Below are positions 45,992 through 51,753 of a DNA stretch of 64,000 nt, in pieces. The notes beneath the pieces are model-generated. The model searched no databases. It was not told where the DNA came from and was given only the letters and a program-made list of their open reading frames with translations. How positions within the stretch are numbered: the first letter of the stretch is position 1; the number at the start of each line of letters is the position of its first letter. The stretch comes from Caldithrix abyssi DSM 13497 (GTDB lineage: Bacteria; Calditrichota; Calditrichia; Calditrichales; Calditrichaceae), in NCBI RefSeq assembly GCF_001886815.1, contig NZ_CP018099.1, positions 3,222,501 to 3,286,500 of the forward strand, read 5' to 3'. The position numbers and the translations under genes are program-made.

Positions 45992-47560
45992 TTACAAGGC
46001 CACATATTTATGCGAATGGTCGTCCAGGTCAATGGAATCGAAAATCGTTTTTAACCAGCGCAAACCGAATTTATTATGAAAATAAACCGAACTCAATATG
46101 CGTTCCTGCGGCTTGCCGGCCGGATAAAAACTGTGGTGGATTGCAGTCAATTGTTCTACCGTTTTTTGATTTTTTTGCCGAAAGGCGCGCAGCAGGCGAT
46201 CATTCATTTTTTGCAGATTGTTTTCTATGCCGCTAAAAGTCTTTTCGACCACGCTTTCCAGAGTGGGATCGATGTTTTTACCAAGTTTTCGATACAACTC
46301 CAGACTTTGAGCGATTTGCGCCTTTAGACGAGCGGTCTCTTTTTCCATCTCTTTTAAATCATTTTGTTTGAAAAAAGCCTTTATCCAGCTGCCGGCCTCC
46401 TGCGGCACATCTTCTGCTCGCAGATCGAATTTTTTCAGTAGCCTACCGATCCGGGGTTCGATCAGAGTGGCCGAAAATCGCGGCTGCAAATGCGGCATGG
46501 ATATGTCGAATTGTTTAAACGCTCTTTTAAGCTGCGCCCAGTAGGCGATTTCGGCGGGCCCTGCCACGTATGAGGCCACGGGCAACATCCAGCTTTGCCA
46601 TAACGGCCGGGTTAAAACGGAGGCAGAAATACGATCGGGACTTTCGCTTAAGCGATCCAGTAATTGCGTTAAGGTCAGCGTGCTCTGTTCGCCGTAAACT
46701 CTGAAATTTGGGCCCTCACGCAAAATCGGCTGGCGCGCGTCTTGCCGATCTCTGAAAAACAAATAGGCGCGTTCTAACTGAATCGGAACTTGCGGCCGGC
46801 CAATCTGTGCGGTTTGGACGCGCAGCGCCTGCAGCAGTGCATCGTTTTCCGACAGAACACGCTTAAAAAACGGCAGGCTTTGTTCCTTTACCTCTCTTGC
46901 GCCGGGATCAAAAAAAAGCAAGCCAAAGGGTCCCAGCAATTCCTGTAAATGTTCTTTAAAGCAGCGTAACCAATTTTCGCCTGGACGGTAAATGCTGGCC
47001 AGTAAATCGAACAAAGCGCCAGAAAATTCGCTGGGCTGCAAAGAGGCTTTTAGGGTCGATAAAACTTCTTTAATGTTCCGCGGTAACGAACGCCTGCCTA
47101 CCGGGGTTCTTCGTTCGCCGCTCGCTTGTACTTCAATCTTTTTTAGTTCATTTTGCCGATCAAACACGTAAGCGTGATTTACTTCGTCAAAATCATGGTC
47201 TTCGCCCTCCAGCCAGAAAACGGGCACATAGTTGAACGCCCGGTTGTCCTCATTCAACCTGGCGCTAAGCGCCACGGCGGTTAGCGCCTTAAATACCACA
47301 TAAAGGGGCGAAACCAGAAAGCCCAGTTGCTGGCCGCTAACCACCAGCAGCGTATTTTCTTGCTTTAAAAAGGCAAGATGCTGCTTTTGCCGCTCAAACT
47401 GTACTTCCCCATTCTGGCGGATCAATTCGCTTGTTAAAAAGGTGCGCCGCTGCCCCATCACCTCTTCGGAAAGAGCGTTCCAGTCCGCTTTTAAAGGATG
47501 GGCAAAATACTCAGTCAAAGTTCGATTGGACTGCAGATATCTGGAAAAAATTTCATTCAT
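45992..47560 (-). CDS. bshC: Putative cysteine ligase BshC (bacillithiol synthesis)
   Basis: BshC adds cysteine to glucosaminyl-malate in the last step of bacillithiol synthesis. This 522-residue protein matches the family in length. It has the Rossmann-like core motifs VVSGQQLGFLVSPLYVVFKA, YVPVFWLEGEDHDFDEVNHA and PVASYVAGPAEIAYWAQLK, plus a long C-terminal coiled coil (DLKEMEKETARLKAQIAQSL). bshA and bshB are not in the window. Its start overlaps the methyltransferase stop (ATGA). It implies the organism uses bacillithiol as a low-molecular-weight thiol. Confidence 0.92.
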   Translation of the reverse strand: MNEIFSRYLQSNRTLTEYFAHPLKADWNALSEEVMGQRRTFLTSELIRQNGEVQFERQKQHLAFLKQENTLLVVSGQQLGFLVSPLYVVFKALTAVALSARLNEDNRAFNYVPVFWLEGEDHDFDEVNHAYVFDRQNELKKIEVQASGERRTPVGRRSLPRNIKEVLSTLKASLQPSEFSGALFDLLASIYRPGENWLRCFKEHLQELLGPFGLLFFDPGAREVKEQSLPFFKRVLSENDALLQALRVQTAQIGRPQVPIQLERAYLFFRDRQDARQPILREGPNFRVYGEQSTLTLTQLLDRLSESPDRISASVLTRPLWQSWMLPVASYVAGPAEIAYWAQLKRAFKQFDISMPHLQPRFSATLIEPRIGRLLKKFDLRAEDVPQEAGSWIKAFFKQNDLKEMEKETARLKAQIAQSLELYRKLGKNIDPTLESVVEKTFSGIENNLQKMNDRLLRAFRQKNQKTVEQLTAIHHSFYPAGKPQERILSSVYFHNKFGLRWLKTIFDSIDLDDHSHKYVAL

Positions 47561-48300
47561 TGTCTTGCCTTTTTAACCGTTAAAAAAATCAATCGCGGGC
47601 TTTGCGCCTCAAATGGCCGGCCCTGATAATCGCCAAAAACTTTTTGTATTTTAAAGCCGGCCGCATTTAACAGGGCTTTCAGCTCAAAAAGGTTGTAAAG
47701 GCGTACGGATTCTAAAAATTCCCTCTGGCGGCCCTTTTGTTCGATGGTGATTGCTTTTTCAACGCGTTTGCCGACAATTCGCCGCGTCTCAACAATCTTT
47801 TTACCATTAATGGTTCTGACGGTCTCTCCTTTAAGATGTTTTTGCACATAGCTGGCATTGAGAAAATCTAAAAAGAAAACGCCGCCTTTCTTTAACACGC
47901 GATGGTATTCTTTTAAAACCTGTAAATTTTCGCCATCGTCAAAAAAATAACCAAACGAGGTGAACAAACTCACCACTACCTCAAAGCGCGTTTTAAAAGG
48001 AAGCGCCCGAATATCTCCGCGCACCAGTTCAAGCGGGCAATTCTGCCGGGCGCGTTTTAATAGGCTCATTGAAAGATCAAGCCCAAAAACAAAATCGGAC
48101 CAATTTTTCAAAAGGCAGGCGTGTCTTCCGGGGCCGCACGCCGCGTCCAGAATTTTCGTTTGTTTCGTAATATGAATATTTTTAACGATTAAACGAATCA
48201 AATCCTGCGCGTCTTGCTCATCGCGGTGGGCGTAAACTTCGATGTACTCTTCGCCAAACCAGTTTTTGAACCAGTTTTCTTTAAATCCACTTATGCTCAA
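47557..48300 (-). CDS. SAM-dependent methyltransferase
   Basis: This 247-residue class I methyltransferase has motif I ILDAACGPGRHACLL, an acidic residue in FGLDLSMSLL, motif II-like FEVVVSLFTSFGYF and post-motif KGGVFFLDFLNASYV. Substrate not determinable. The start is TTG at 48300, 20 bases inside the epimerase gene, with only a weak SD; it ends overlapping bshC by 4 bases. Such tight packing shows it belongs to the epimerase-bshC operon. Confidence 0.85.
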   Translation of the reverse strand: MSISGFKENWFKNWFGEEYIEVYAHRDEQDAQDLIRLIVKNIHITKQTKILDAACGPGRHACLLKNWSDFVFGLDLSMSLLKRARQNCPLELVRGDIRALPFKTRFEVVVSLFTSFGYFFDDGENLQVLKEYHRVLKKGGVFFLDFLNASYVQKHLKGETVRTINGKKIVETRRIVGKRVEKAITIEQKGRQREFLESVRLYNLFELKALLNAAGFKIQKVFGDYQGRPFEAQSPRLIFLTVKKARQ

Positions 48301-49264
48301 CGTACCATTCTAACGTTTGTTTAACTCCGTTTTCCAGACTCGTTTGCGTTGCAAACCCCAGCTCTTTTTGAATTTTTTTCGGCGAACAAATCCAGAAATC
48401 AGGTAACAGCTCCGCCACTTTCTGGCGATTGATGATGGATGGCTGTTTGGTAATTTTGCTCCATCTTTCCGAGACGGCGGCAATAATCTTTACCGCGCCC
48501 AGCGGGATGGGCACATGAATGGCCTTCGTTTTAAAGAAGTCTATGACAACGCGCGCCAGATCGTCCCACGAGTATGGCTGCGCGTCGGCAATAAAGTAGA
48601 TTTTATCCCGCGCTTTTTCGTGTTCGGCCGCCAGCGCGATACCCTCCACCAGGTCTTTAACGTAAACAAAGCTGGCATATTTATCGCGGTTTTGCCATTT
48701 GGGGATGATCCCGCGCTTAACAGTCTGGAAAAACTGCAAAACATCGGTGTCGCGCGGGCCATAAACAGCGGGCGGACGAATAATGGTAAAAGGCAGTTTG
48801 CCCTTTTGTTCAAGGATGTACTTTTCGGCCAGCAGTTTGCTTTTGCCATATTCGCTAACCGGGTGGGGCTCATCTTCTTCTGTAACCGGTTCGAAAGAGC
48901 TGGCTGGCCCAGCAGCTGCCTGCGAACTAATAAAGACAAAGCGTTTGACGGGCAGATTGTTATTGATAATCAGATCCACCAGCTTTTTTGTGCCTTCGAA
49001 ATTAACCTTGTAGTAATCTTCGTTTTTTAAGGCCTTGGTTAGCGCGGCGCAGTGGATGACCACATCAATATCCTTTAAACCGCTTAACAGACTCTGTGGA
49101 TTATCTAAACTGCCGTAAAAGCTTTCCAGATTTAAATCGGCAATCCAACGTAAATTGCTGGTTGTTCGCAATAAAACACGTAGCTCATGGCCCTGTTGTA
49201 ACAGCTTTTCTGCCAGGTGGCTGCCGACAAATCCGGTTGCTCCCGTTAAAAATATCTTCGCCAT
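48281..49264 (-). CDS. NAD(P)-dependent epimerase/dehydratase family protein
   Basis: This 327-residue extended short-chain dehydrogenase has the TGATGFVGSHLAEKL nucleotide motif (GxxGxxG), an HCAALTK strand, and the catalytic pair Tyr139 and Lys143 (SEYGKSKLLAEK). Overall it resembles dihydroflavonol reductase/3-beta-HSD-like and CerR-like members rather than a sugar epimerase, as far as can be judged by eye. It is the first gene of its operon and diverges from the SPT-like gene 154 bases away. If that gene makes 3-ketosphinganine, this could be the reductase (CerR type); that is inference. Confidence 0.82.
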   Translation of the reverse strand: MAKIFLTGATGFVGSHLAEKLLQQGHELRVLLRTTSNLRWIADLNLESFYGSLDNPQSLLSGLKDIDVVIHCAALTKALKNEDYYKVNFEGTKKLVDLIINNNLPVKRFVFISSQAAAGPASSFEPVTEEDEPHPVSEYGKSKLLAEKYILEQKGKLPFTIIRPPAVYGPRDTDVLQFFQTVKRGIIPKWQNRDKYASFVYVKDLVEGIALAAEHEKARDKIYFIADAQPYSWDDLARVVIDFFKTKAIHVPIPLGAVKIIAAVSERWSKITKQPSIINRQKVAELLPDFWICSPKKIQKELGFATQTSLENGVKQTLEWYVEHKWI

Positions 49265-49418
49265 GCATCCCTCTTTTGCTTTAAATAAATTAAAAACCTA
49301 TATTAAAAAAGATCGGAGAAATTCGCAATCTTTAATCGATATTTTTTTTTGCATATATTAGAATAAAATTGCGAATTTATAAAAATTTCTTAGTGTTTAA
49401 TTATGGGTGGAGGTTCTG

Positions 49419-50609
49419 TTGGATATTTTTGAAAAATGCCGTCGGTTTACACGCGCTAAAGAAGCGATCGAAGCGGGTATTTACCCTTACTTTCGACCGC
49501 TTTCAGGGAATGACGGTCCCCGGGTGTTTATGGAAGGACGCGAAATTATTATGATCGGCTCCAACAACTATCTGGGGCTGACGCACGATCCGCGCGTCAT
49601 TGAAGCGGCCATTGCAGCGACAAAGCAATATGGCACCAGTTGTTCCGGTTCGCGCTTTTTGAACGGGACGCTCGATTTACATCATCAACTGGAAAACAAA
49701 ATTGCGCAATTCATGAATCGCGAGGCAGCGCTCATTTTTAGCACCGGCTACATGGCTAACCTTGGGGGAATTGCGACTCTGGTTGGCAAAGATGAGTATA
49801 TTATTCTCGACAAATCGGACCACGCTTCCATTTATGCCGGAACGCGCGCCGCGATAGGCGCACAGATCAAACGCTTTGTGCACAACGACATGGAAAGTCT
49901 GGAACGCGTGCTCTCCCAGCTGGAGCCAGAAACGCCTAAACTCATCGTTTGCGACGGCGTGTTTAGTATGGAAGGCGATATTGTGCGCCTGGCAGAAATC
50001 CTACCTCTGGCGCAAAAATACAACGCTCAAATTTACATCGACGAGGCGCATGGCGTCGGCGTTCTTGGCGAACACGGCCGGGGCGCCTGCGAATATTTAG
50101 GTCTGGAAGAGCACGTTGAAATTGTAATGAGCACTTTCAGCAAATCGTTGGCTTCCATTGGCGGCTTTGTAGCCGGTCCGCAGTATGTAATCGACTACAT
50201 TAAACATCACGCCAGTCCGTTAATCTTTTCGGCCTCGCCCACGCCCGCCGCCACGGCAGCCGTACTTAAAAGCATCGAAATCATCGAAACGGAACCAGAA
50301 CACATGCAGCGCCTCCATCACATCAGCGATAAGATGCGCTACGAATTTAAACGTCTCGGTTTCGATATTGGGCACAGTAAAGACACGCCGATCATTCCCC
50401 TCTACATCCGTAATGACGACCTCACCTTCCTCTTCTGGAAACGGCTTTTTGAAGAAGGGGTTTACAGCAACGCCGTTATCAGTCCGGCCGTGGCGCCGGA
50501 TCAGGCTTTGATCCGAACCAGCTTCATGTCCACCCACACCGATGAAGACCTGGACAAGGTGCTGGAAATAGCAGCAAAAGTTGGCAAAGAACTGGGTATC
50601 ATTCAATAA
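49419..50609 (+). CDS. Alpha-oxoamine synthase, serine palmitoyltransferase-like
   Basis: This PLP enzyme condenses an amino acid with an acyl-CoA. The 396-residue sequence has the PLP lysine Lys242 in TFSKSLASIGGF, the aspartate and histidine of IDEAHGVGVLGEHG, His135 in DKSDHASI, and the family region GSRFLNGTLDLHHQLE. It looks to me closer to bacterial serine palmitoyltransferase than to KBL or BioF (IYPYFRP near the N-terminus, GSNNYLGLT, SASPTPAATAAVLKSIEIIE, and SPAVAPDQALIRTSFMSTHT). The longest frame begins at GTG 49407, but TTG 49419 has GGAGG exactly 5 bases upstream and is preferred. It is followed after 13 bases by an acyltransferase-like gene. Confidence 0.88.
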   Translation: MDIFEKCRRFTRAKEAIEAGIYPYFRPLSGNDGPRVFMEGREIIMIGSNNYLGLTHDPRVIEAAIAATKQYGTSCSGSRFLNGTLDLHHQLENKIAQFMNREAALIFSTGYMANLGGIATLVGKDEYIILDKSDHASIYAGTRAAIGAQIKRFVHNDMESLERVLSQLEPETPKLIVCDGVFSMEGDIVRLAEILPLAQKYNAQIYIDEAHGVGVLGEHGRGACEYLGLEEHVEIVMSTFSKSLASIGGFVAGPQYVIDYIKHHASPLIFSASPTPAATAAVLKSIEIIETEPEHMQRLHHISDKMRYEFKRLGFDIGHSKDTPIIPLYIRNDDLTFLFWKRLFEEGVYSNAVISPAVAPDQALIRTSFMSTHTDEDLDKVLEIAAKVGKELGIIQ

Positions 50610-50622
50610 CAGGAATTAAAAA

Positions 50623-51753
50623 ATGTCTGTCGAAATCATTCCCGTGCGTTCCAAAAAAGAATTCAAAAGATTCCTCGACCTTGAGTGGGAGATCAATCGA
50701 AATACGCCCAATTGGGTCAGCCCTCTACGCATGGAACGCGCCAAACTACTGGACACAAAGAAGAATCCTTTTTACCAACATGCCGAAATAGAAATGTTTC
50801 TGGCAAAAAAGGACGGTAAATTTGTGGGACGGATTGCCGCCATTACCAATGAAAACCACAACAAATTCCACGGCGATCGATGGGGCTTTTGGGGATTTTT
50901 CGAATGTATTAACGACCAGCATGTGGCAAACGCCCTGTTTAAAGCCGCAGCCGAATGGTTAAAAGCCCGCCAGCGGGACAACATGGTGGGGCCGATGAAT
51001 CCTTCGACCAATGATGAATGCGGGCTGCTCATCGAAGGATTTGATACGCCGCCATTCGTGATGATGACGCATAATCCGGACTACTATCCGCAGCTGGTCA
51101 CCAATTTTGGTAATACAAAGATTAAAGATTTGTACGCCTGGTACCTGCCAACCGAAACCGCGCTGGCCAATATTACCGACAAACTGGAGCGCATCGCCAA
51201 TAAAATTCAAGCCCGGCACAGCTTTCGATTCCGTACCGCGCAGCTAAAACATCTGGATCGCGAAATCAAACTCATCAAAGAGATTTACAATGACGCCTGG
51301 AGCAAAAACTGGGGATTTGTTCCCTTTACCGACGCTGAAATCGACTATCTGGCCGCGCAGTTAAAACAGATCGTGGATGAAGATTTGCTGCTTCTGGCCT
51401 TTAAGGGCGACGAACCTATTGCCTTTAGCTTAACCATTCCCAACATCAACGAGATACTGGCTAAAATTCCGGATGGCAGGCTGTTTCCCACGGGTATTTT
51501 TAAATTGCTGTTCGGCCTTAAAAAGATTAAAACGGCCCGCGTCATAACCCTGGGCGTTCGGCGGGAATATCAACACATGGGTCTGGGTTCCATTTTTTAC
51601 ATTGAAACGATTAAACGAGCGGCTAAAAAAGGCATTACCGCCGGCGAACTTTCGTGGATTTTAGAAGACAACGCACCCATGAACAGCGCGATTCAGGCCT
51701 TTGGTTCAGAGCTGTATAAACGCTATCGCATTTACCAGTATCCCTTAAAATAA
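50623..51753 (+). CDS. GNAT-like acyltransferase
   Basis: This 376-residue protein has an N-terminal domain (IIPVRSKKEFKRFLDLEWEI) and a C-terminal GNAT-like fold: DEDLLLLAFKGDEPIAFSLT, then VITLGVRREYQHMGLGSIFY, the latter like the acetyl-CoA-binding loop (Q/RxxGxG/A), then AGELSWILEDNAPMNSAIQA. Large YghO-like proteins of this kind are uncharacterised, but in bacteria GNAT-related enzymes can serve as ceramide synthase (bCerS). Being 13 bases downstream of an SPT-like gene makes N-acylation of a sphingoid base a testable idea. A terminator follows directly. Confidence 0.75.
   Translation: MSVEIIPVRSKKEFKRFLDLEWEINRNTPNWVSPLRMERAKLLDTKKNPFYQHAEIEMFLAKKDGKFVGRIAAITNENHNKFHGDRWGFWGFFECINDQHVANALFKAAAEWLKARQRDNMVGPMNPSTNDECGLLIEGFDTPPFVMMTHNPDYYPQLVTNFGNTKIKDLYAWYLPTETALANITDKLERIANKIQARHSFRFRTAQLKHLDREIKLIKEIYNDAWSKNWGFVPFTDAEIDYLAAQLKQIVDEDLLLLAFKGDEPIAFSLTIPNINEILAKIPDGRLFPTGIFKLLFGLKKIKTARVITLGVRREYQHMGLGSIFYIETIKRAAKKGITAGELSWILEDNAPMNSAIQAFGSELYKRYRIYQYPLK

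Follow-up and report, generated by a model that had tools for sequence, protein, structure and literature searches.

A gene trio in Caldithrix abyssi DSM 13497, a deep-branching thermophile of the phylum Calditrichota, very likely covers the core of bacterial (dihydro)ceramide synthesis by encoding a serine palmitoyltransferase (Spt), a GNAT-type ceramide synthase (bCerS) and an extended-SDR reductase (CerR). The window analyzed here is a stretch of 64,000 nucleotides from this genome, which consists of one contig of 4,978,541 bases (4.98 Mb). Sequence comparison established the identity and completeness of the three genes, their active-site residues and their conserved linkage, and given overwhelming family matches and a conserved neighborhood, the trio is not a chance arrangement. 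All three open reading frames were confirmed where the original prediction had placed them (Table 1), as were the 13 bases from the spt stop codon to the bcerS ATG and the 154 bases that separate the start codons of the divergent genes cerR and spt. For spt, the TTG at 49419 (also the choice in that prediction) was judged a better start than the GTG at 49407 given by a mechanical ORF caller, because a GGAGG motif lies five bases upstream of it. Furthermore, spt and bcerS apparently form a single transcription unit. A promoter scan of the gap between cerR and spt yielded a single plus-strand match (49336–49364), which is no more than shuffled sequences give.

Table 1. Features of the ceramide locus and its bacillithiol neighbors, with assigned functions (window coordinates).
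Feature	Coordinates	Strand	Description
bshC	45992–47560	minus	bacillithiol synthesis; TIGR03998 416.9 bits (above the cut-off of 265.8); ends the cerR-nmbA-bshC run
SAM methyltransferase, NmbA-like	47557–48300	minus	N-methyl-bacillithiol synthase-like; downstream of and overlapping cerR; best solved relative 9RI2 (2.4e-42)
cerR	48281–49264	minus	327 aa; extended-SDR (NDUFA9-like) ceramide/3-keto reductase
cerR-spt intergenic region	49265–49418	none	154 bp; both promoters presumed inside, by position only
spt	49419–50609	plus	396 aa; serine palmitoyltransferase, PLP-dependent alpha-oxoamine synthase
bcerS	50623–51753	plus	376 aa; GNAT-type bacterial ceramide synthase (YghO/CC_1154 family), predicted tandem GNAT fold

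Among the NCBIfam models, SerpalmtaseCFB (NF047600) scored highest for the synthase (524.6 bits), ahead of BioF (358), PRK06939 (KBL; 353) and TIGR01822 (KBL; 293). Naming the protein directly by family cut-off was nonetheless abandoned, since the score lies below the cut-off of 640 for this Bacteroidota equivalog (i.e., a curated naming threshold and not a biochemical feature), so that an automatic pipeline would not call it SPT; the cut-off of the SPT equivalog NF047599 was likewise missed (381 vs. 500). The best solved relative was the SPT of Sphingobacterium multivorum (about 403 bits, vs. 227 for KBL). Moreover, the catalytic residues are all kept (Lys242, the Schiff-base lysine, together with His135, Asp208, His211, Asn49 and Arg366), and the motif around the PLP lysine, STFSKSLAS, is of the GTFSKS type.

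Three discriminating positions (Ser243, Ala274 and Ser81 in S. multivorum numbering) are occupied in the window synthase by Ser241, Ala272 and Ser78, which is the signature of SPT and not that of KBL, BioF or SulA. This Ser/Ala/Ser signature was invariant in 84/84 SPTs drawn from loci with a GNAT gene, the equivalents being G/N/V in E. coli KBL and G/T/S in BioF. Specifically, the first position is Gly in both E. coli KBL and BioF, the second is Asn in KBL, Thr in BioF and Lys in the aligned SulA, and the third is Val in KBL, yet Ser in BioF too. In a tree of 29 sequences, the synthase joined the SPTs of S. multivorum and E. coli B (support of 97/87), apart from KBL and BioF and on the Bacteroidota rather than the Rhodobacteria branch, while a single clade of Calditrichota SPTs and KBL was rejected (lnL –54, AU p = 0.0006). 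A clear grouping with KBL or BioF had been named beforehand as a refuting outcome, and the synthase thus passed this test; KBL, BioF and ALA-synthase identities are ruled out by the scores, the tree with its AU test, and the signature. No second full-length alpha-oxoamine synthase was found in the genome, where the sole other match was partial (27.5 bits), so the synthase is not a spare copy of a biotin or threonine enzyme. Judged from its sequence, it is an SPT, and from described homologues it would be expected to condense serine with an acyl thioester.

The adjacent GNAT protein matches Pfam PF00583 and aligns end to end with YghO of E. coli B (38% identity over 378 columns, 246 bits). For E. 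coli B, yghO (ECD_02850) is listed as the aca gene and as orthologous to Caulobacter CC_1154, which encodes the ceramide N-acyltransferase required for dihydroceramide (PMC9386255). The predicted bCerS function therefore gained a full-length described homologue. The attached caveat, that a YghO-like form might differ in chemistry from bCerS, falls away because YghO is itself the E. coli B orthologue and listed ceramide N-acyltransferase, i.e., the YghO-like form is the described bCerS family. No solved structure related to bCerS by sequence could be detected. An AlphaFold2 model built from 63 sequences (mean pLDDT of 95) matched tandem-GNAT enzymes in the PDB, best of all the clavulanate-pathway protein 2WPW and MAB_4324, with mycothiol synthase, histidine N-acyltransferase-like entries and FemX among the lower matches. 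No strongly hydrophobic 19-residue segment was found, and bCerS is predicted to be a soluble, tandem-GNAT enzyme in which the blocks conserved most within the family (NWGFVP and E(x)SW(I)LEDN) may take part in catalysis. About a quarter of the YghO-family loci in other genomes (best 80 of at least 588 relatives) had no SPT in reach, including L058, L060, L064, L067, L072, L074, L077 and L118, so these GNATs may not be confined to ceramide and may also serve another N-acylation.

The SDR aligns over its full length with E. coli B CerR (28% identity, 139 bits), and it ranked first when the genome was queried with the E. coli protein (115.8 bits vs. 50.5 for the next SDR), in agreement with the CerR role originally predicted for it. 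NDUFA9-type structures match the protein as well, and CerR has been described as an NDUFA9-type match (PMC11087976). In an SDR tree, most spt-linked SDRs clustered with the window and E. coli B CerR proteins, but this tree carries less weight than that of the SPTs because the group also takes in a long-branched SDR (L005) encoded at another place in the genome. The SDR is the best CerR candidate in the genome, but the match is only 28% and falls within a large and promiscuous superfamily, which counts against the assignment. A second SDR (30–32% identical to the window CerR and forming its own clade) was seen beside the spt-bcerS pair in three Calditrichota genomes, either directly behind bcerS (L152:10930-11928 and L153:10267-11256) or beside spt (L154:10909-11910).

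Caulobacter CerR is reported to be periplasmic, with its source of NADH unexplained (PMC11087976). In the window CerR, the Rossmann nucleotide-binding motif begins as early as residue 3, and at most 11 extra upstream residues fit into the frame (338 vs. 327), leaving no room for a classical signal peptide; the protein could still be exported by a non-classical route. E. coli B CerR likewise begins directly at the nucleotide-binding motif, and many CerR homologues look like the window protein, the open frame ahead of the motif having a median length of 15 residues.

The minus-strand genes at 45992–48300 are probable N-methyl-bacillithiol genes on sequence grounds, with the NmbA-like methyltransferase gene overlapping bshC; 9RI2 is NmbA of C. 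tepidum (PMC12719100). The run of cerR, nmbA and bshC is conserved across several Calditrichota families. The methyltransferase probably serves a different pathway from ceramide synthesis, and the run could reflect either a link between redox thiols and lipid reduction or merely shared transcription. We tentatively propose that in Calditrichota CerR may be a cytoplasmic NAD(P)H enzyme produced together with the N-methyl-bacillithiol enzymes, with Spt and bCerS being made as one unit. If CerR is indeed cytoplasmic, keto-reduction would occur inside the cell, unlike with the periplasmic Caulobacter enzyme; and if Spt and bCerS are one unit, bcerS would not be set apart for the salvage route proposed for Rhodobacteria.

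To place the locus in context, 40 Calditrichota genomes were searched at set homology thresholds, revealing homologues of SPT in 38, of bCerS in 36 and of CerR in 35, with a few of the SPT matches being only KBL/BioF-like. In all 28 phylum loci where both genes were readable, spt lay directly upstream of bcerS on the same strand (median gap of 49 bp), and a CerR homologue was close to the pair in most Calditrichota families. A pattern scan outside the phylum returned at least 588 relatives, and among the best 80 of these loci SPT was present in 57 and the complete trio in 43. In other genomes, spt was directly upstream of bcerS in 51 of 57 loci holding both, and the window's order (cerR< spt> bcerS>) was the commonest among the three-gene loci of the best 80 (23/43), being seen in Ignavibacteriota, Zixiibacteriota, Planctomycetota, Gemmatimonadota and others. 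The window locus is thus a typical example of a cluster that occurs widely.

A few genomes departed from this picture or carried additional genes. A same-genus genome (L146; G001:C542) has, besides the orthologous pair, an additional spt (66% identical), followed about 1 kb downstream by an additional bcerS-like gene (45%). A contig of a Calditrichota MAG (L143; G033:C241) carries a Betaproteobacteria-type SPT scoring above the NF047599 cut-off, a YghO homologue, and a CerR that groups with that of E. coli B, a set that reflects either transfer or contamination. In a quick tree, the SPTs of one Calditrichota family (L028 and L030; G021 and G022) nested among those of Ignavibacteriota, which suggests horizontal transfer of spt. 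Finally, the public contig L049, titled "Caldisericaceae bacterium", encodes proteins 86–90% identical to those of the window and corresponds to the same-genus contig G001:C359; its record title looks misassigned.

In the proposed pathway, Spt would condense L-serine with a long-chain acyl thioester into 3-keto-sphinganine with loss of CO2, bCerS (apparently from the same transcript) would add a second acyl chain onto the amine, and CerR would reduce the 3-keto group. We infer these reactions from described homologues, as well as the use of serine, an acyl donor that is either acyl-CoA or acyl-ACP, and acylation before reduction. The original prediction had also held that the organism makes sphingolipids: its three gene assignments survived our tests, while the presence of the lipid itself is deduced from those genes. 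In this sense, Calditrichota very probably make sphingolipids. As a clue to the head group, three DAGK-fold kinases in the genome were considered and rejected, because this family occurs in nearly all control genomes and therefore says nothing on a ceramide kinase.

The choice of amino acid could alter the product. Position 79 (S. multivorum numbering), which contacts the amino-acid side chain via water, is Ser in the window Spt vs. Ala in S. multivorum, so the amino-acid preference of Spt could be broader. Since the S. multivorum enzyme also takes alanine and glycine, albeit weakly (PMC10196870), and 1-deoxy and unusual amino-acid ceramides are discussed for anaerobic marine bacteria in PMC11334938, the synthase might use alanine or glycine to yield 1-deoxy bases and, ultimately, 1-deoxyceramide or a similar amide. 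We consider this improbable, as the residues of the serine hydroxyl/carboxylate network in S. multivorum SPT (Asn52, Ser81, His138, Gly80 and Ser243) are all kept in the window Spt. Synthesis of sulfonolipid (capnine) by a cysteate acyltransferase like SulA is considerably less probable still: SulA is an SPT homologue with the same fold and an otherwise identical active site (PMC9304779), but its sole distinguishing residue, Lys281, is Ala272 in the window Spt, as in SPTs, so that the SulA reading is rejected on the diagnostic residue, and the entries for SulA (7U7H) and the cysteate enzyme CFAT (28EH) scored only 198–214 bits vs. 403 for SPT. Finally, that the synthase is a KBL/BioF-type housekeeping enzyme with the three genes being neighbors by chance is scarcely credible, since its shared superfamily and the missed curated SPT cut-off are outweighed by the tree, the AU test and the active-site signature, and chance is opposed by the invariant spt-bcerS pairing in the readable phylum loci and the nearby CerR homologues in most families. 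We therefore retain the assignment of the trio to (dihydro)ceramide synthesis.

This assignment places a complete core ceramide pathway in nearly all Calditrichota genomes, including that of an apparently cultivated thermophilic anaerobe, and with such a strain in culture, genome-based claims on widespread bacterial sphingolipids could be tested directly on its lipids. The Caldithrix abyssi genome paper makes no mention of sphingolipid or ceramide, and no report of Calditrichota sphingolipids was found in the open-access main texts searched. The phylum is also unnamed in the main text of PMC11334938, but the supplementary taxon list of that study (38 phyla) or the primary 2022 bCerS paper may already include it. 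The pathway as such is known; what goes beyond a repeat is the spt-bcerS unit, the CerR without room for a signal peptide, and the association of cerR with N-methyl-bacillithiol genes. The gene order bears on the dispute over where and in which order the final two ceramide steps take place, because spt and bcerS stand in tandem in the window as well as in many phyla, with cerR apart from them and its product lacking a signal peptide, and such gene-order and targeting details could help settle this open question on bacterial ceramide synthesis.

Among known systems, the ceramide cluster of E. coli B and Rhodobacteria comprises aasR, cerR, acpR, spt and yghO (i.e., aca/cerS; PMC9386255), and the E. 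coli B cluster (locus L003) holds full-length homologues of all three window proteins (39% for Spt, 38% for bCerS and 28% for CerR). However, the window bcerS lies directly behind spt, whereas E. coli B yghO is divergent and separate, and no AasR or AcpR gene is adjacent to the window spt, while the Rhodobacteria-type operon has both. A close stand-alone AasR is absent from the genome, in which the best AasR match forms part of a giant ORF with many domains. The published claim that bacterial cerS is always in another operon than spt is therefore not general, because bcerS directly follows spt in the window and in most examined loci outside Rhodobacteria.

The closest characterized Spt is of the Bacteroidota type (S. 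multivorum, PDB 3A2B/8GUH; NF047600), with which the active-site residues are shared; in Bacteroidota producers, however, the three genes reportedly do not lie near one another (PMC11334938), in contrast to those of the window. Alistipes SulA has its fold and PLP residues in common with the window Spt, but the diagnostic lysine of SulA is replaced by Ala272 in the window Spt. Finally, the same gene set as in the window, i.e., an Spt-like clade B with linked bCerS and CerR, is described for Black Sea MAGs of many uncultivated phyla in PMC11334938, which argues from genes to lipid by the same logic as used here; compared with those MAGs, the present case offers a single-contig genome and a phylum-wide survey.
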